Below, one piece after another: positions 7,107 through 53,715 of a stretch of DNA of 64,000 nucleotides. How positions within the stretch are numbered: position 1 is the first letter of the stretch; the number at the start of each line of letters is the position of its first letter. Both the position numbers and the translations under genes were made by a program. The DNA comes from Nocardiopsis sp. CC223A (GTDB taxonomy: Bacteria; Actinomycetota; Actinomycetes; Streptosporangiales; Streptosporangiaceae), in contig NZ_JASFDV010000012.1 of assembly GCF_030766825.1 (NCBI RefSeq), forward strand, positions 1-64,000, written 5' to 3'. The notes beneath the pieces were generated by a model. That model was given only the letters and a program-made list of their open reading frames with translations. It was not told where the DNA came from and did not search any database.

Positions 7107-7228
7107 CAAGGGTCCGCGCTTGTCCGACACGGTCGTGTCGGGACCTGGTCCTCACCCGGGGCACCCCACCGCGGATGGAGGGTTGCCGACCAGCAAGCCG
7201 GGGCTTCGCGCTGGTACTCGTGACCTGC
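7107..7228 (-). promoter_or_regulatory. SAM-IV riboswitch
   Basis: Read on the minus strand the leader contains the SAM-IV core in order: GGTCACGAGTACCAGCG, then AAGCCCCGGCTTGCTGG, CGGCAACCCTCC, CCGCGGTGGGGTGCCCC and GGGTGAGGACC, which closes the stem. A variable hairpin follows (GACACGACCGTGTC) and then the pseudoknot-side element CAAGCGCGGACC. This matches the actinomycete SAM-IV class (Rfam SAM-IV), which shares the SAM-I ligand core. It ends about 50 nt before the aminotransferase start and presumably lowers that gene's expression when SAM is bound. The order and spacing of conserved blocks make the call strong. Confidence 0.93.
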
Positions 7229-18581: not shown

Positions 18582-19733
18582 TCAGGGGCGCCCGGTGCCC
18601 CACAGGTCGGCCAGGGCGGCGCGGCGCTCGGCGCGGGAGAGTCCGCGCAGGTCGGCGACGCCGCGTTCGGTGACCACGACCTCCACGTCCTGGGAGGGGG
18701 TGGTCACCGGCCGGGAGAGGCGTTCGACCAGGGTGGGGCGGCCGCGGTGGCGGGTGGGGATGGCGATGACGCTGAGCCCGCCGATGGAGCGGGTGGCGGC
18801 CGCGGCGTAGTCGGAGTGGCCGCCGATGCCGCCGAGCACGCCCTGGGCGGTGCCCTCGACGTTGACCTGGCCGTCGTGGTCGATCTCCACCGCGGTGTTG
18901 ACGGCGACGAAGGGGTCGGCGGACAGGCGGCCGGGGTCCAGGACGTGTTCGACCGGGTGCAGCAGGGGACGGCCGTCGGCCCAGGCGTGCAGGCGGGGGC
19001 CGCCGACGAGGTACATGCCGACGGGGTCGCCCAGCAGCAGGCCGCGCTCGTCGAGGTCGACGACGGCCTCGGGCAGCGGGCCGGAGTCGATGCGCACGGG
19101 GACCCGCAGTTCGGCGGCCAGGGCGGCGGGCACGGGGCCGAAGCCGAGCTGGAGGCGGGCCCCCTCGGGGATGAGGGGCGCCAGGTGGCGGGCGATGGCG
19201 GCCTGGTCGGGGCCGGTGGGCGAGGGGCGCAGGGTCCCGGCGGTGCGGTCGTTCGAGCCGATGACGACGACGCGGTCGGCGGGCAGCGGCGGCCCTGCGT
19301 CGGCACGGGGCAGATTCGGGGAGACCACCCCCGCGACCAGGGCGCCGGCCTCGACGGCGGTGCGCAGCCAGCCCACCTCGCTGCCGAAGGCGTACCCGCC
19401 GGGCACCGGGACCACGGAGGCGACGAGCAGGTCGGGGCGCCAGAGGCCGTGCAGCAGGGCGGGGACGGCGGACATGCGCACCGGCGGGTGGGCGACGAGA
19501 CCGCGGTCGACGTGGTCGCGCAGGCCCCAGCCGGGCATGACGGTGCGGGCGTCGGCGAACGCGGTGGGGTCGAGTCCGGGGTCGGCCTCGGGGACCCAGC
19601 CCAGGACGAGGCGGACACCGCCGGCGCGCGCGGCGGCCGCGCACAGGTCGGCGGTGACGCTCCGCGGCGCGCCGAATCCGTCGCCCAGGGCGACGGTCGC
19701 ACCCGGCCCCACCAGGTCGGTCAGACTCTCCAC
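18582..19733 (-). CDS. acetyl-CoA hydrolase/transferase family protein
   Basis: A 383-residue member of the class I CoA-transferase fold that includes 4-hydroxybutyrate and acetate CoA-transferases. The C-terminal half holds the signatures GGIGGHSDYAAAATRSIGG and FVAVNTAVEIDHDGQVN. The N-terminal half is shorter than in most members (383 versus ~430 aa), with no long first lobe. Substrate: unknown short-chain acyl-CoA or acid. The GTG at 19733 follows GGAAGGGGAG. It is divergent from the Nudix regulator across a 154-bp gap that holds a long inverted repeat, so it may share that control region. Confidence 0.78.
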   Translation of the reverse strand: MESLTDLVGPGATVALGDGFGAPRSVTADLCAAAARAGGVRLVLGWVPEADPGLDPTAFADARTVMPGWGLRDHVDRGLVAHPPVRMSAVPALLHGLWRPDLLVASVVPVPGGYAFGSEVGWLRTAVEAGALVAGVVSPNLPRADAGPPLPADRVVVIGSNDRTAGTLRPSPTGPDQAAIARHLAPLIPEGARLQLGFGPVPAALAAELRVPVRIDSGPLPEAVVDLDERGLLLGDPVGMYLVGGPRLHAWADGRPLLHPVEHVLDPGRLSADPFVAVNTAVEIDHDGQVNVEGTAQGVLGGIGGHSDYAAAATRSIGGLSVIAIPTRHRGRPTLVERLSRPVTTPSQDVEVVVTERGVADLRGLSRAERRAALADLWGTGRP

Positions 19734-19837: not shown

Positions 19838-19878
19838 AGTTCTTCTCGAACAGAGAAAAACTCACTCCGAGAAGAACT
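19838..19878 (+). promoter_or_regulatory. long inverted repeat upstream of the Nudix regulator cassette
   Basis: Perfect 11-bp arms (AGTTCTTCTCG / CGAGAAGAACT) are separated by 19 bp. Inside lies a smaller palindrome, TTCTC-GAACA-GAGAA, so TTCTC-type half-sites occur three to four times in 41 bp. It ends 9 bp before the ATG at 19888. The AT-rich stretch stands out in 73% GC DNA. It is the obvious binding site for the winged-helix regulator encoded by the next gene, by analogy with NrtR autoregulation. As RNA it could also fold into a hairpin. Confidence 0.75.
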
Positions 19879-19887
19879 GGACCGACC

Positions 19888-20679
19888 ATGGTGGACGACG
19901 GGATGCGGCGGGACGCGGCCGAGCGGGAGTTCCTGGCCGCCTACGACCCGCACGCCTACGCCCCCGTCGCGGTGACCGTCGACGTCGTGGCGATGACCAT
20001 CCGCGCCGGGGAGCCGCTCGTGCTGCTGGTCCGCCGGGGCGCCAGCCCGCAGCAGGGCCGGTGGGCGCTGCCCGGCGGCTTCGTCCGGGCCGAGGACGGC
20101 CCCGCCGGACCCGCCGACCCCGACCTGCCCGACGCGGCGCTGCGCGTCCTGGCCGAGAAGACCGCCCTGCCCACCACCCTGCACCTGGAGCAGCTGGGCA
20201 CCTACGGCGCCCGCGACCGCGACCCCCGCATGCGGGTCTTCTCGGTGGCGTACATGCTGCTCGCCCCCGACCTGCCCGACCCCGAGCAGGGCCGCGACAC
20301 CGCGGAGGCGGCCTGGGTGCCCTGGCGCGACCTCGGCCACGGCGGCACCGCGCGGTACGAGCCCGCCTTCGACCACACGCGCATCATCGCCGACGCCGTC
20401 GAACGGGCCCGCGCCAAGCTGGAGTACACCTCCCTGGCCACCGCGTTCCTGCCACCGGTGTTCACCATCACCGACCTGCGCGAGGTGTACGAGGCGGTGT
20501 GGGGCCGGCCCCTGCACGCCGCCAACTTCCACCGCAAGATCCTCGCCGCCCCCGGGTTCGTCCGGGACACCGGAGAACTCGCCGACCGCGGCGGCGCCGG
20601 CGGCGGCCGCCGCCCCCGCCTGTACCGGGCGGGCGGCACCGCCGCCCTGCACCCGCCGCTGCTCAGGAGCGCCCCATGA
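19888..20679 (+). CDS. NrtR-like regulator: Nudix domain plus winged helix
   Basis: 263 aa. The N-terminal Nudix fold (VTVDVVAMTIRAGEPLVLLVRRG, LPGGFV) is followed by a winged-helix domain (FTITDLREVYEAVWGRPLHAANFHRKIL, about residues 192-219), the architecture of NrtR, which senses ADP-ribose-type ligands. The Nudix box is degenerate: the region after GGFV reads AALRVLAEKTAL, without the REx2EE core, so it probably binds rather than hydrolyses its ligand. It is the first gene of the cassette and overlaps the next start (ATGA). It probably represses its own operon through the inverted repeat upstream. The ligand is unknown. Confidence 0.85.
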   Translation: MVDDGMRRDAAEREFLAAYDPHAYAPVAVTVDVVAMTIRAGEPLVLLVRRGASPQQGRWALPGGFVRAEDGPAGPADPDLPDAALRVLAEKTALPTTLHLEQLGTYGARDRDPRMRVFSVAYMLLAPDLPDPEQGRDTAEAAWVPWRDLGHGGTARYEPAFDHTRIIADAVERARAKLEYTSLATAFLPPVFTITDLREVYEAVWGRPLHAANFHRKILAAPGFVRDTGELADRGGAGGGRRPRLYRAGGTAALHPPLLRSAP

Positions 20680-21749
20680 CCCCCGTGGAGGTCCCGATGA
20701 CCGTCGAGGAGGCCACCCGCGCCGTCCTCACCGCCCATGACCCCTCCGACCTGTTCGGGCCGCTCCCCGCCGACGACGCCGTGCCCGCGGCGGCCGCGGC
20801 CGCGCACCGGCGGCTCGCCCGGCTGCTGCACCCCGACACCCCCGCCGGCGACGCCGCGCTCTTCACCCGGCTGACCGAGATGTGGACGCGCTACCGGGAG
20901 GCCGTCCGGGGGCGGATCGGGTTCGACGACCACGTGGTCGTCACCGCCTCCCGGAGCTACCACGTGGGGTCCTCCCCGCTGGCCTCGGGCGACATCGCCG
21001 ACCTGTACCCCGTCCGCTACCGGGACGGCCACTGGCGCGGCGCCGTGCTCAAGGTGCCCCGGGCCCCGCGCGACAACGACCTGCTGGAGGCCGAGGCCAC
21101 CGCCCTGGAGCGGATCCGCGGGCACGGTCCGCGCGAGGCCCGGGCGTTCTTCCCCCGGCTGCTGGAGTCGATCCGCCACCGCGACGCCACGACCGGCGTC
21201 GAGCGCAGGGCCAACGTGCTGGCCCGGCTGGACGGCTTCCACAGCCTGGCCGACGTGCGCCGCGCGTACCCCGACGGCATCGACCCGCGCGACGCCGCGT
21301 GGATGTGGCGCCGCCTGCTGGTCGCGATCGACGCCGCCTCCCGGGCCGGGGTGGTGCACGGGGCGGTGGTGCCCGAACACGTGCTGATCCACCCCGGGGA
21401 GCACGGCCTGGTCCTGGTCGACTGGTGCTACTCGGTCACCGCGCACGCCGCGCGCACCGCCCCGCACATCCCCGCGATGGTCCCCCACCGCAAGGACCTC
21501 TACCCGCCCGAGGTGGCCGAGCGCCGCCCCGCCTCGGTGCGGACCGACATCTACATGGCGACCCGGTGCATCGAGTACGTCACCGCGGGCCGCCTGCCCC
21601 GGGAGCTGCGCTCGTTCGCCCGCGGCTGCGCCATGCCCGCGGCCGGGCAGCGCCCCTCCGACGGGTTCGCCCTGCTGGTCGAACTCGACGAGGTCCTGGA
21701 GCGGCTCTACGGGCCGCGCCGGTTCCGCCCCTTCACCATGCCGGCCTGA
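20676..21749 (+). CDS. J-domain-like / protein-kinase-like fusion
   Basis: 357 aa with two parts. Residues ~30-75 look like a short J-domain with an HPD tripeptide in RRLARLLHPDTPAGDAAL. Residues ~90-340 look like a protein kinase: a Lys in AVLKVPRAPRDNDLLEAE, an HG-type catalytic-loop remnant VVHGAVVPEHVLIHP, and LVDWCYS where DFG would be, then RTDIYMATRCIEYVTAG. The glycine loop and the HRD Asp are not evident, so it is probably a pseudokinase or an atypical kinase. Starts at 20676 (AGGAG) and 20697 (GGAGG) are both possible. It sits between the regulator and the vWA gene. Confidence 0.7.
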   Translation: MTPVEVPMTVEEATRAVLTAHDPSDLFGPLPADDAVPAAAAAAHRRLARLLHPDTPAGDAALFTRLTEMWTRYREAVRGRIGFDDHVVVTASRSYHVGSSPLASGDIADLYPVRYRDGHWRGAVLKVPRAPRDNDLLEAEATALERIRGHGPREARAFFPRLLESIRHRDATTGVERRANVLARLDGFHSLADVRRAYPDGIDPRDAAWMWRRLLVAIDAASRAGVVHGAVVPEHVLIHPGEHGLVLVDWCYSVTAHAARTAPHIPAMVPHRKDLYPPEVAERRPASVRTDIYMATRCIEYVTAGRLPRELRSFARGCAMPAAGQRPSDGFALLVELDEVLERLYGPRRFRPFTMPA

Positions 21750-21798
21750 CACCCCCGTCAGGCCGGCCCGACACCCCATCGACACGAGGAGAACCACC

Positions 21799-22788
21799 AT
21801 GGGAAGCAGCAGCTGGTCCACCGACGCCTACCACGCCCGCAAGGCCTACAACGCCTCCGCCGGACGCAGCGACTTCGGCTACACCGACGACGTGCTGTCG
21901 TCCGTCCCCCGCAACAAGTGGAAGGTCCACGAGAAGCTCGACCCCAAGGGCGTCACGGTCCGCGAGAGCCGCGACTCCGACGAGCACCCCGAATCCCTGG
22001 CCATCTCGGTGCTGTTCGACGTCACCGGTTCGATGGGGCGCGTCCCCCGCGTGCTCCAGACCAAGCTGCCCGCCCTGTTCGGCCTGCTGCTGCGCAAGGG
22101 CTACGTGGAGCACCCGCAGATCCTGTTCGGCGGGATCGGCGACGCCACCTGCGACCGGGCCCCGCTCCAGGTCGGCCAGTTCGAGTCCGGCAACGAACTG
22201 GAGGAGGACCTGAACAACATCCTGCTGGAGGGCGGTGGCGGCGGGCAGGTCACCGAGTCCTACGAGCTGGCCATGTACTTCATGGCCCGGCACACCGCCA
22301 TGGACTGCCTGGACGAGCGCGGACGCAAGGGCTACCTGTTCCTCATCGGCGACGAGAAGGCCTACGGCAAGGTCAAGGCCCGCGAGGTGCGCGAGGTCAT
22401 CGGCGACGACCTGGCGGAGGACATCCCGTTCCCGCAGATCCTCGCCGAGCTGCGGCGCAGGTTCGAGGTGTACTTCATCATGCCGAGCGGCAGCAGCCAC
22501 TTCACCAACAACGACGTCCGGTCCTTCTGGGACACCCACCTGGGCCAGAACGTCATCCACCTGGAGGACCTGGGCGCGGTGTCGGAGACCATCGCGGTGA
22601 CGATCGGCCTGTCCGAGGAGGCCATCGACCTGGAGGAGGGCCTGTCCGACCTCGCCGACGCCGGGTCCGACGCCGGCGACGTCGTGGGCCGGGCGCTGGC
22701 GCCGCTGGCCGGGCCGCGCGGCTCCATCGTGCGCTCGACCGGCCTGCCCGGCGGCGACACCCCGGCCCCGGGGACGGACCGGCTGTGA
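21799..22788 (+). CDS. von Willebrand factor A (vWA) domain protein
   Basis: 329 aa, cytoplasmic (no signal peptide or membrane helix). The MIDAS-like metal motif DVTGSMGRVP lies at about residues 74-83, preceded by a hydrophobic strand (LAISVLFDVTGS). LFLIGDEKAYG and VYFIMPSGSSH supply later strands of the fold. The acidic C-terminus ends in a Pro/Gly tail. vWA proteins usually act as metal-dependent adaptors in multi-protein complexes, often with AAA+ partners, but none is encoded here. GAGGAGAA precedes the ATG. Its stop overlaps the next start (GTGA), so it is coupled to the PurA-like gene. Confidence 0.8.
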   Translation: MGSSSWSTDAYHARKAYNASAGRSDFGYTDDVLSSVPRNKWKVHEKLDPKGVTVRESRDSDEHPESLAISVLFDVTGSMGRVPRVLQTKLPALFGLLLRKGYVEHPQILFGGIGDATCDRAPLQVGQFESGNELEEDLNNILLEGGGGGQVTESYELAMYFMARHTAMDCLDERGRKGYLFLIGDEKAYGKVKAREVREVIGDDLAEDIPFPQILAELRRRFEVYFIMPSGSSHFTNNDVRSFWDTHLGQNVIHLEDLGAVSETIAVTIGLSEEAIDLEEGLSDLADAGSDAGDVVGRALAPLAGPRGSIVRSTGLPGGDTPAPGTDRL

Positions 22789-24110
22789 ACACCCCTGAGT
22801 GGGCCGACACCTCGGCCGTCGTCGTCGACCTGGGGTTCGGCGACGCGGGCAAGGGTGCGACGGTCGACCTGCTGTGCGCGCGGCGGCGCTACGGCGCCGT
22901 CGTGCGCGCCAACGGGGGCGCCCAGGCCGCCCACAACGTCGTGGCCCCGGACGGACGCCACCACACGTTCTCCCAGTTCGGCGCGGGAACCCTGGTGGGC
23001 GTGCCCACGCACCTGTCCCGGCTGATGGTGGTGGACCCCTTCGCGCTGGCCGCCGAGGGCGTCCACCTGGCGTCCCTCGGTGTTCCGGACCCGTTCGCCC
23101 TGGTCACGGTGGACGCCCGGGCGCTGGTCGCCACCCCCTGGCACCAGGAGGCCAACCGCGTCCGCGAACGCGCCCGGGGCGGCGGCCGCCACGGGTCGTG
23201 CGGGATGGGCGTGGGCGAGGCGATGGCCTACGCCCTGGCCCGCCCCGAGGACGCCCCCACGGTCGGCGACTGCCGCGAACCCGCCCGGCTGCGCCGCAAG
23301 CTGCACCGGCTGGCCGACCACCTGGACGGGCTCCGCCGCGAACTCGGCGCCACCGGCGACAGCCCGGACATCGAGGACTGCGTCGCCGCCTACCGCGACT
23401 TCGCCCACCGCATCCGCATCGTGGACGATGCCCACCTGCCCGGGCTGCTCTCCCGCGCCCCGGTCGTGTTCGAGGGCGCCCAGGGGGTGCTGCTGGACGA
23501 GTGGCACGGCTTCCACCCGCACACCACCTGGTCCACGACCACCACCGCCAACCCGCTGGCGCTGCTGGCCGAAGCGAACGCCGATGCCCGCCGCATCGGT
23601 GTCGTGCGCTCCTACACCACCCGGCACGGCGCGGGACCGTTCCCCACCGAGGCCCCCGAACTCGCCGCGCTGCTGCCCGAGGCGCACAACGGGACCCACC
23701 CCTGGCAGGGAGCGTTCCGGGTGGGCCACCTGGACCTGGTCGCCCACCGCTACGCGCTGGCCGCCACCGGCGGGGTGGACTCCCTGGTGGTCACGCACGC
23801 CGACCGGGCCGACCGGGTCCGCCGCTGCACGGGCTACACCGACCCGGCGGGACGCCCCCTCCGGATCACCCCGGGCGACGCCCCGGCGCCCAGCCACCCG
23901 CTGCACCCGGCCCCCGGCCGCCTCGACGCCCGCGCCGACGCCCACCTGCGCCGCCAGGCGGCCCTGGCGGACGCCCTCGCCACGGCCCGCCCCGTCCTGG
24001 CCGACGGCCCCACCACGCCCGAGGCGATCGCCGACGCCCTGGAGACCCCGCTGGAGGCGGTCTTCTCCGGCCCCACCCGCGCCGACGCCCGCCTCACCGC
24101 CCCGGCCTGA
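22785..24110 (+). CDS. divergent adenylosuccinate synthetase paralogue (PurA-like)
   Basis: 441 aa with a recognisable PurA fold but altered active-site motifs. The P-loop is GFGDAGKG (residues 17-24), so the catalytic Asp and first Lys are kept but GDEGKGK becomes GDAGKGA. His50 in QAAHNVV matches the catalytic His. The IMP loop GTTGRGIGP becomes GSCGMGVGE. FEGAQGVLLD and VRSYTTRHGAGPFPTE are well kept. The guanine-recognition TKLD is THAD. The housekeeping PurA is expected elsewhere. The enzyme probably condenses an amino acid with a different nucleotide, or uses a different NTP. Position: last gene of the four-gene cassette. Confidence 0.8.
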   Translation: MNTPEWADTSAVVVDLGFGDAGKGATVDLLCARRRYGAVVRANGGAQAAHNVVAPDGRHHTFSQFGAGTLVGVPTHLSRLMVVDPFALAAEGVHLASLGVPDPFALVTVDARALVATPWHQEANRVRERARGGGRHGSCGMGVGEAMAYALARPEDAPTVGDCREPARLRRKLHRLADHLDGLRRELGATGDSPDIEDCVAAYRDFAHRIRIVDDAHLPGLLSRAPVVFEGAQGVLLDEWHGFHPHTTWSTTTTANPLALLAEANADARRIGVVRSYTTRHGAGPFPTEAPELAALLPEAHNGTHPWQGAFRVGHLDLVAHRYALAATGGVDSLVVTHADRADRVRRCTGYTDPAGRPLRITPGDAPAPSHPLHPAPGRLDARADAHLRRQAALADALATARPVLADGPTTPEAIADALETPLEAVFSGPTRADARLTAPA

Positions 24111-53477: not shown

Positions 53478-53715
53478 GTGGAGGCAGGTCTTCGGACTCA
53501 CGGGCGCGATCGGTGGACCACCGATCTCCTAATGCCCGCCGCTTCCCGGTCTCCGACCTCTCAGGTCGGTTCGCCAGTGCTCAATGGCGGGGGTCGTTCC
53601 CGTACACCGCTGCGGGGCAGTCCCGGATTCGCACCGGGTTCCCTCTTGCGACGCGCGCCACCGGCCCGGGATCGCCCCGGACGAGGAGGTGGCGCGTGTA
53701 CCTTCCACGCCTGCG
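53478..53715 (-). promoter_or_regulatory. cobalamin (B12) riboswitch
   Basis: On the minus strand the conserved blocks appear in order: AGGGAACCCGGTGCGAATCC, GGGACTGCCCCGCAGCGGT, GAGCACTGGCGAAC, GACCGGGAAGCGGCGGGC and, closing, GAGTCCGAAGACCTGCC. This is the B12-box architecture. It ends about 150 nt before the metE start. Expected effect: metE is repressed when adenosylcobalamin is available, implying a MetH elsewhere in the genome. Confidence 0.93.

Follow-up and report, generated by a model that had tools for sequence, protein, structure and literature searches.

Sequence analysis of a four-gene cassette that pairs a divergent PurA-like enzyme with a vWA protein in Nocardiopsis and in phages

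The window examined here, the whole 64,000-nucleotide stretch from contig NZ_JASFDV010000012.1 of Nocardiopsis sp. CC223A, carries a cassette of four genes in one orientation (19838–24110) that encode a Nudix-winged helix regulator, a J-domain protein with a kinase fold, a von Willebrand factor A (vWA) protein and a paralogue of the adenylosuccinate synthetase PurA. An initial annotation had described co-oriented genes with overlapping or near junctions, and this layout was confirmed: two junctions overlap (ATGA and GTGA) and the kinase and vWA genes are separated by 49 nt. Comparison with relatives points to the vWA and PurA-like proteins as a conserved pair in bacteria and phages, the enzyme of which has apparently lost the residues that hold aspartate. 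The features are as follows.

19838–19878, no strand: operator, an outer inverted repeat with 11-bp arms around two CTC-N5-GAG sites 16 bp apart
19888–20679, + strand: Nudix-winged helix-turn-helix regulator gene (263 aa)
20676–21749, + strand: J-domain pseudokinase gene (357 aa), ATGA overlap with the regulator stop at 20676
20703–20906, + strand: J domain (residues 10–77), with HPD at 52–54 between two helices of the AlphaFold model
20931–21710, + strand: kinase fold (residues 86–345), catalytic Asp of HRD replaced (HGA in the window copy)
21799–22788, + strand: vWA gene (329 aa), phrog_2971 match 1.5e-72
21799–21816, + strand: conserved vWA N-terminus MGSSSW, of the form start-Gly-x-[GS]-x-[WYF]
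22018–22035, + strand: metal-ion-dependent adhesion site (MIDAS) motif DVTGSM (residues 74–79)
22785–24110, + strand: PurA-like gene (441 aa), GTG start, GTGA overlap with the vWA stop at 22785
22839–22856, + strand: GDAGKG catalytic loop; Asp20 and Lys23 equal E. coli Asp13 and Lys16, both in 77/77 sequences
23688–23735, + strand: replaced aspartate loop Asn302...WQGAFRVGHLD (residues 302–317), standing where PurA has TTGRxRRxGWxD

The four proteins and their operator

The PurA-like protein matches PF00709 (Adenylsucc_synt, 2.7e-57) and phrog_1211 (3.8e-75), and a canonical PurA is encoded elsewhere in the same genome, as expected of the paralogue that the initial annotation had named; the general purA models of NCBIfam score it at 112–142 bits, against cut-offs of 396–445. 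For residue comparison, 77 PurA-like sequences were aligned to the genome's own canonical PurA and numbered as in E. coli. Catalytic Asp13, Lys16 and His41 are each kept in 77/77 sequences and, as mapped by motif, the equivalent of Gln224 is invariant and that of Thr239 nearly so. In PurA, Arg131 and Arg305 bind aspartate. Arg303 of the E. coli enzyme interacts with it too, and in PurZ a loop contacts aspartate, according to the accessible part of PMC8342488. Among the PurA-like sequences, the Arg131 position holds Met, Val, Leu, Lys, Ile or Gln in 73/77, the Arg303 position is gapped in all 77 (the adjoining column is Arg in 6) and the Arg305 position is hydrophobic in 76, the Arg306 equivalent being kept in 76/77. 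Thr300-Thr301 have become Trp-Gln (58 and 73 of the 77, respectively) and the loop Gly persists in 71, a conserved WQG-x-F-R loop standing in place of the TTG loop and arginines through which PurA binds aspartate. The nucleotide pocket is altered as well, with Asn38 replaced by Gln in 76/77 and Thr129 by Cys in 67/77, and the Arg143 position is unconserved across the family. We interpret the enzyme as a PurA paralogue which, judging from these alignments, has lost its aspartate-holding residues family-wide while keeping its catalytic ones.

None of the vWA Pfam families matched in 82 vWA homologues, and the product of the third gene appears to have a vWA fold recognisable by fold alone: its AlphaFold model (pLDDT 92.5) retrieves integrin I domains and, at rank 22, the NorD VWA domain in Foldseek, and this fold together with a MIDAS of the DxTxS form supports the assignment made initially. 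Its N-terminus is exceptionally uniform. When starts before Gly were favoured, 173 of 178 vWA frames gave a start codon with Gly directly after it, no more than 12 codons from where it was expected; the residues conform to Gly-x-[GS]-x-[WYF], position 6 being Trp in 144, Tyr in 19 and Phe in 9 of the 173. Without that preference, among 173 frames extending to the start of the profile, the nearest start codon precedes Gly in 171 and coincides with the profile start in 170; the profile's own seed itself begins Met-Gly. All eight deposited vWA annotations at hand (L003–L007, L009, L010 and phage Alice) begin Met-Gly. By comparison, Gly occupies the second position in 21 of 171 PurA-like genes, and kinases and regulators most often have Thr there. 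The glycine codons vary (GGA 98, GGT 43, GGC 31, GGG 1), and the constraint therefore acts on the vWA protein.

Five of the 178 frames are exceptions. In L020 an in-frame stop comes after MGSSSW, ATA stands ahead of GGGTY in L136, the start of L156 (GGGSW) lies six codons further upstream than expected, and L184 is a decayed frame. In L183 (genome G467) the N-terminal motif is lost and the C-terminus is shortened, with the MIDAS, GDE and LEGGGGG motifs intact, in a genome that has no PurA-like gene, which suggests that the N-terminus may have been lost alongside the enzyme. In phage Alice, the vWA gene gp247 (L001:8881–10665) is interrupted by an intein-like insert, with weak matches to Hint and Intein_splicing, just ahead of the strand that runs into the GDE motif on the MIDAS side; two-piece matches also occur in other mycobacteriophage records, some of which call the gene HNH endonuclease.

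The second protein of the cassette matches phrog_3043 (2.5e-46), and its AlphaFold model (pLDDT 95.8) matches the PknB fold in Foldseek (6.8e-11). Among 153 relatives, the His and Asp of the J-domain HPD motif, placed between helices II and III, are present in 131/131 ungapped sequences and the Pro in 128. Of 60 homologues, Pfam recognises DnaJ in 29 and Pkinase in 23, and it finds neither in the window's own copy. The catalytic Asp of HRD survives in 1 of the 153 (Ala 111, Gly 34, Ser 5, Asn 2), and the J-domain/pseudokinase label given to this gene initially is thereby borne out. Since the HRD Asp is lost while many of the 153 relatives keep the beta-3 Lys (113), the alphaC Glu (118) and the DFG Asp (100), the protein is a pseudokinase that may retain nucleotide binding. 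It is also dispensable to the cassette, because no kinase match was obtained in the entire record of Vibrio phage Va1, in that of Rhizobium phage TM39, which was deposited as a partial genome, or in L180–L182, which retain the regulator, vWA and PurA-like genes, two of these three vWA proteins being without the C-terminal part of the profile.

The regulator matches NrtR_WHD (1.9e-13) and NUDIX (1.1e-12) in Pfam, in agreement with its initial description, and its nearest solved structures are AraR and 3gz5 ('MutT/nudix family protein'), which we take to be NrtR. In the window's own protein the Nudix box is degenerate, though its three glutamates are kept in 70, 79 and 71 of 85 relatives. Ahead of the gene lies the perfect 11-bp inverted repeat noted at the outset (AGTTCTTCTCG at 19838–19848 and CGAGAAGAACT at 19868–19878), the arms of which form the outer part of a 39-bp core, GTT[CG]TTCTC-N21-GAGAA[GC]AAC, at 19839–19877. 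We searched 78 bacterial loci that have at least 120 nt upstream of the same regulator for this pattern with spacers of 18–24, using controls with bases shuffled in pairs. At up to 4/18 mismatches it occurs in 74/78 loci (19 of them exact) versus 3/390 controls, and the repeat thus exceeds chance; the spacer is exactly 21 in all of the best 40 rows. The paired CTC-N5-GAG sites in the window resemble the spacing that two dimers side by side would require. The exact pattern occurs once in the genome's own 6.9 Mb, at the cassette, and the two additional sites seen at 3 mismatches are as many as a backwards control gives; the regulator therefore most likely controls its own operon alone. A second weak Nudix match lies downstream of the cassette in streptomycete-type loci (L023, L024, L027, L031–L034, L037 and L081).

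Co-occurrence, distribution and genomic site

Scanning with the vWA alignment yielded at least 558 relatives among 589 candidate genomic stretches listed and 248 relatives among 277 viral ones, of which the best 80 of each were kept as loci extending about 6–7 kb to each side of the vWA gene, as far as the contig reaches. The best 80 bacterial loci contain the PurA-like gene in 77 cases, the kinase in 73 and the regulator in 76; in the best 80 viral loci the corresponding counts are 79, 71 and 2, so the regulator is nearly restricted to bacteria. Two of the three bacterial loci that miss the PurA-like gene (L046 and L056) are contig ends, and in the third (L085, Gemmataceae) the gene is elsewhere (411 bits): in L085, L190 and L195 from this family, vWA and PurA-like genes occur on one contig 1.9 Mb apart, a case of coupling without linkage. 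The single viral miss, L168, is a contig that ends about 2 kb downstream.

Across 200 genomes sampled from the window's order, with cut-offs of at least 200 bits for the PurA-like protein and at least 100 bits for the kinase, vWA was found in 88, the PurA-like gene in 86 and the kinase in 77, and 112 had neither PurA-like nor vWA genes. The 200-bit cut-off is clean because canonical PurA reaches at most 193 bits among the matches listed (down to about 183 bits). Homologues occurring independently of the vWA gene were not seen: neither the PurA-like gene nor the kinase was present without it in any of the 200 genomes (Fisher p 3e-55, a value that ignores relatedness). Within 6 kb of the vWA gene lie 85/86 PurA-like and 76/77 kinase genes, the remaining two being on a contig other than that of vWA. 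In G323 and G412, which are among the 86, the PurA-like gene matches as two pieces in one frame. Only two genomes have vWA without the enzyme, namely G467, which keeps regulator and vWA, and G366 of the window's genus, where all four genes have decayed together (L184:6100–8200) at the ruvC-yebC site that the window's cassette also occupies, a sign of joint loss. Taken with the conserved gene order, this co-occurrence and joint decay sustain the initial proposal that the genes belong together, and they indicate that the vWA and PurA-like proteins form a conserved unit in bacteria and phages. No same-frame matches pointed to a natural fusion of the two, and among the 35 largest clusters of neighbouring open reading frames, searched for an extra conserved component, one draws on both viral (9) and bacterial (1) loci, each of the others being confined to one side. 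No published description of this combination was found in a literature search that left subscription journals mostly outside its range; what came nearest was the gene list for phage Pinkcreek and the work on PurZ.

The cassette is accessory and patchy in the phylum, where 2 of 296 sampled genomes have the vWA gene, the window's own included; within the window's genus it occurs in 25 of 32 sampled genomes, once as a decayed copy. Among 50,697 phage records, vWA was found in 208, the PurA search matched 214 and the kinase 191, with Mycobacterium accounting for 189 every time. For vWA and PurA alike, 10 records come from Rhizobium and 6 from Vibrio, and the PurA tally includes Listeria (5) and Salmonella (1), neither of which is in that of vWA. 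Contigs of at least 100 kb make up 38 of the best 80 viral ones. The genes of phage Alice (Bixzunavirus) run kinase gp246, vWA gp247, a small gp248 and PurA gp249. Rhizobium phage RHph_TM39 (L004:2894–5158) has HAD-like, ComF-like phosphoribosyltransferase (PRTase_3) and Nudix genes 3–5 kb upstream of its vWA-PurA pair, a set that resembles the biosynthetic genes of Ter systems. Phage Pinkcreek lists 'PurA-like' and 'kinase' genes, by name only in the accessible part of PMC9476963. Plasmids carry vWA in 21 of 72,556 cases, and 6 of 7 fetched loci contain the PurA-like gene, a Rhodovulum plasmid (L010) being the exception; the order is kinase-vWA-PurA-Nudix in Tsukamurella and Rhodococcus plasmids, and Agrobacterium has a divergent Nudix gene. 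A quick tree of 166 PurA-like rows and one canonical PurA needs three changes for the bacterial label and has phage rows on its deeper branches, which fits repeated capture from phages, with an uncertain root and several long branches flagged.

Comparing the window's flanking genes with 87 bacterial loci gave nine matches, seven of them L015–L021 (all seven from Nocardiopsis or Streptomonospora) and the others L184 and L185 of the window's genus; in these, the cassette lies between ruvC and ruvB at one flank and PNPOx and/or yebC at the opposite one. The remaining 78 loci, which did not match the flanks, are located elsewhere or are too short. Since nine loci of close relatives share one ruvC-yebC site, the cassette occupies a single site in these relatives, outside a variable defence island. 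Between ruvC and the cassette, the window has an acetyl-CoA hydrolase/transferase-like gene (18582–19733) that is unmatched in the nine syntenic loci. Elsewhere in the window, SAM-IV and cobalamin riboswitches lie at 7111–7225 (−) and 53483–53662 (−), respectively, both over the gathering score. A promoter scan returned no promoter-like site, and a terminator scan returned one terminator-like site versus 0.7 expected.

Proposed chemistry and competing explanations

PurA phosphorylates the 6-oxo group of its nucleotide in a GTP-dependent step and then forms a C6-N bond to the alpha-amine of aspartate. Because the PurA-like enzyme keeps the residues of the first half-reaction and loses the aspartate cradle, another amine is implied. 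We propose, at about even confidence, that the PurA-fold enzyme of the cassette is a purine-nucleotide ligase that depends on GTP, pairs with the vWA protein, is usually aided by the J-domain pseudokinase and acts on an amine acceptor other than aspartate. Like PurA, it would first phosphorylate a purine nucleotide at the 6-oxo group; C6 would then be joined to that amine, which the vWA protein would present or would itself supply. The pseudokinase would usually help the pair and could recruit DnaK; the regulator, controlling the cassette in bacteria and hardly ever in phages, would free the operon upon binding an ADP-ribose/NAD-like or purine ligand. The strictest partner of the enzyme has a nearly invariant Gly after its start, and its N-terminal glycine is therefore a candidate acceptor. 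Methionine ahead of Gly is normally removed. The vWA alpha-amine could then stand in for the alpha-amine of free aspartate, and the product would be a purin-6-yl-glycyl protein, a specific version that we hold to be rather unlikely; the acceptor may instead be a free small amine, or the vWA N-terminus may have a structural role.

Several observations weigh against these proposals. The loop alignment could be off by one residue, and the purine substrate may not be IMP, because the nucleotide pocket has changed too (Asn38, Thr129 and the Arg143 position). The link between loss of the vWA N-terminus and loss of the enzyme comes from G467, one genome, in which the vWA protein may itself be decaying, as its C-terminus is also shortened; a second vWA gene without a PurA-like partner was sought near G467, the single genome of its genus in the set, and did not emerge. 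The Rhodovulum plasmid has a Met-Gly vWA and no PurA-like match in its 14.8 kb, a search confined to the plasmid and leaving the chromosome aside. At L010:5101–8029 it carries regulator, kinase and a vWA frame that looks disrupted, since it runs into the tail of a TonB receptor, and it counts as contrary unless the disruption is recent. In covariation analysis of 168 vWA/PurA-like pairs, vWA residues 1–14 were absent from the top 40, invariant positions being unable to covary.

The most serious competitor, which we consider possible but doubtful, is that the enzyme uses a free amine other than aspartate to build a modified purine (deoxy)nucleotide, serving DNA modification in phages or signalling in bacteria, with the vWA protein and pseudokinase merely assembly factors. 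The changes in the nucleotide pocket would suit it, as would the viral contigs of 100 kb or more, which are phages with room for metabolic genes, and a modified base made by a phage relative of PurA has its precedent in PurZ (in the accessible parts of PMC8342488 and PMC12884076). A pure metabolic enzyme, however, would have no need of the strict dependence on vWA that we observe (86 of 88 vWA genomes have the enzyme, none has it without vWA). The same coupling is left unexplained if the gene is a second, ordinary adenylosuccinate synthetase that raises AMP supply. The PF00709 match and the kept Asp, Lys and His would allow this, but the aspartate-binding arginines are gone family-wide, a canonical PurA is already in the genome and the NCBIfam purA models fall far under their cut-offs, making it very improbable.

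The initial annotation had raised an anti-phage or other conflict role, in which the PurA-like enzyme could waste GTP or IMP. Patchiness in the phylum, genes common to phage and host, an AbiEii-type gene near the Acetobacter copy (L009) and weak kinase-domain matches to MkoA and PD-T4-6, with others far below cut-off to MAD6 and PglW, speak for such a role; among the cassette proteins these matches belong to one, the other three being unmatched in PADLOC, and none falls in a known defence family. The neighbourhood tells otherwise. Around 30 bacterial loci, 120 neighbouring frames were chosen by G+C content at codon positions (some may not be genes) and 116 were scanned, leaving out two that are the regulator itself and two long ones. 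In PADLOC these matched 19 families at E ≤ 1e-10, with one member each, and in Pfam 133 families, the commonest 25 of which are ordinary (transporters, TetR, metabolic enzymes). Together with the single ruvC-yebC site across nine loci of close relatives and the carriage of cassette genes by mycobacteriophages, this lack of a defence-gene neighbourhood counts against the conflict role, which we now regard as improbable. An NAD/ADP-ribose stress response, whose regulator would sense ADP-ribose from NAD consumption and induce repair of a damaged purine dinucleotide, could draw on the resemblance of the regulator to AraR and 3gz5 and on an altered phosphate pocket that might admit a dinucleotide. 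With the regulator absent from 78/80 viral loci and no NAD enzyme in the 25 commonest Pfam families of the bacterial neighbours, we give it very little credence.

Roughly two hundred phage records and many actinobacteria carry the unit, whose members are annotated piecemeal as 'adenylosuccinate synthetase', 'kinase' or 'hypothetical'. Should the enzyme use another amine, PurA chemistry would gain a third branch next to the synthesis of AMP and of the Z base, and genes of unknown function that lie towards the right end of many mycobacteriophage genomes would acquire a role. If glycine were the acceptor, the reaction would be a new protein nucleotidylation, common to phages and bacteria, through a stable C6-N bond and no phosphoester. 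The predicted product can be searched for by mass spectrometry, and Mycobacterium smegmatis and its phages are a ready laboratory system.

Relation to known systems

The regulator shares with NrtR, AraR and NadQ its Nudix and winged-helix architecture and a palindromic operator, here predicted, before its own gene; it differs in its double 39-bp operator, the sole exact genome copy of which is at the cassette. The Ter systems, with the TerY triad as part of the comparison, offer another parallel. They likewise combine a vWA protein with a kinase-like protein, with nucleotide-like chemistry proposed, in the accessible part of PMC7824862, whereas no TerB, TerC, TerD or TelA Pfam match was found in the four cassette proteins. 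MoxR-vWA chaperone pairs, including those of jumbo phages (PMC7824862, in part), also place a vWA protein in phages, and our fold matches include NorD VWA; unlike them, the four proteins contain no AAA+ family (wider neighbours were not screened for MoxR), and the partners are a PurA-like enzyme and a J-domain pseudokinase. The cassette combination is absent from the accessible parts of PMC7824862 and PMC7159879, which describe MoxR-vWA pairs and, in the former, Ter in phages. Phage orthologous groups phrog_1211, phrog_2971 and phrog_3043 are the same three proteins in phages, annotated as '2-aminooxy adenylosuccinate synthetase', unknown and kinase, respectively, and we found no description of them as a system.

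PurZ and PurZ0 of Z-DNA phages (NF038379) are likewise divergent, phage-encoded PurA relatives. A Ser or Gly in place of Asp13 marks PurZ, and in all 147 phage PurZ sequences the catalytic Asp is replaced by Ser, according to the accessible part of PMC12884076, while the PurA-like family keeps Asp13 in 77/77 and scores 38 bits with the PurZ model against a cut-off of 300, which rules out identity with PurZ. With PurA itself (PF00709) the enzyme shares its family and the catalytic Asp13, Lys16 and His41, and it departs from PurA in the replaced aspartate arginines and loop, in the changes of Asn38 to Gln and Thr129 to Cys, and in having a vWA partner.

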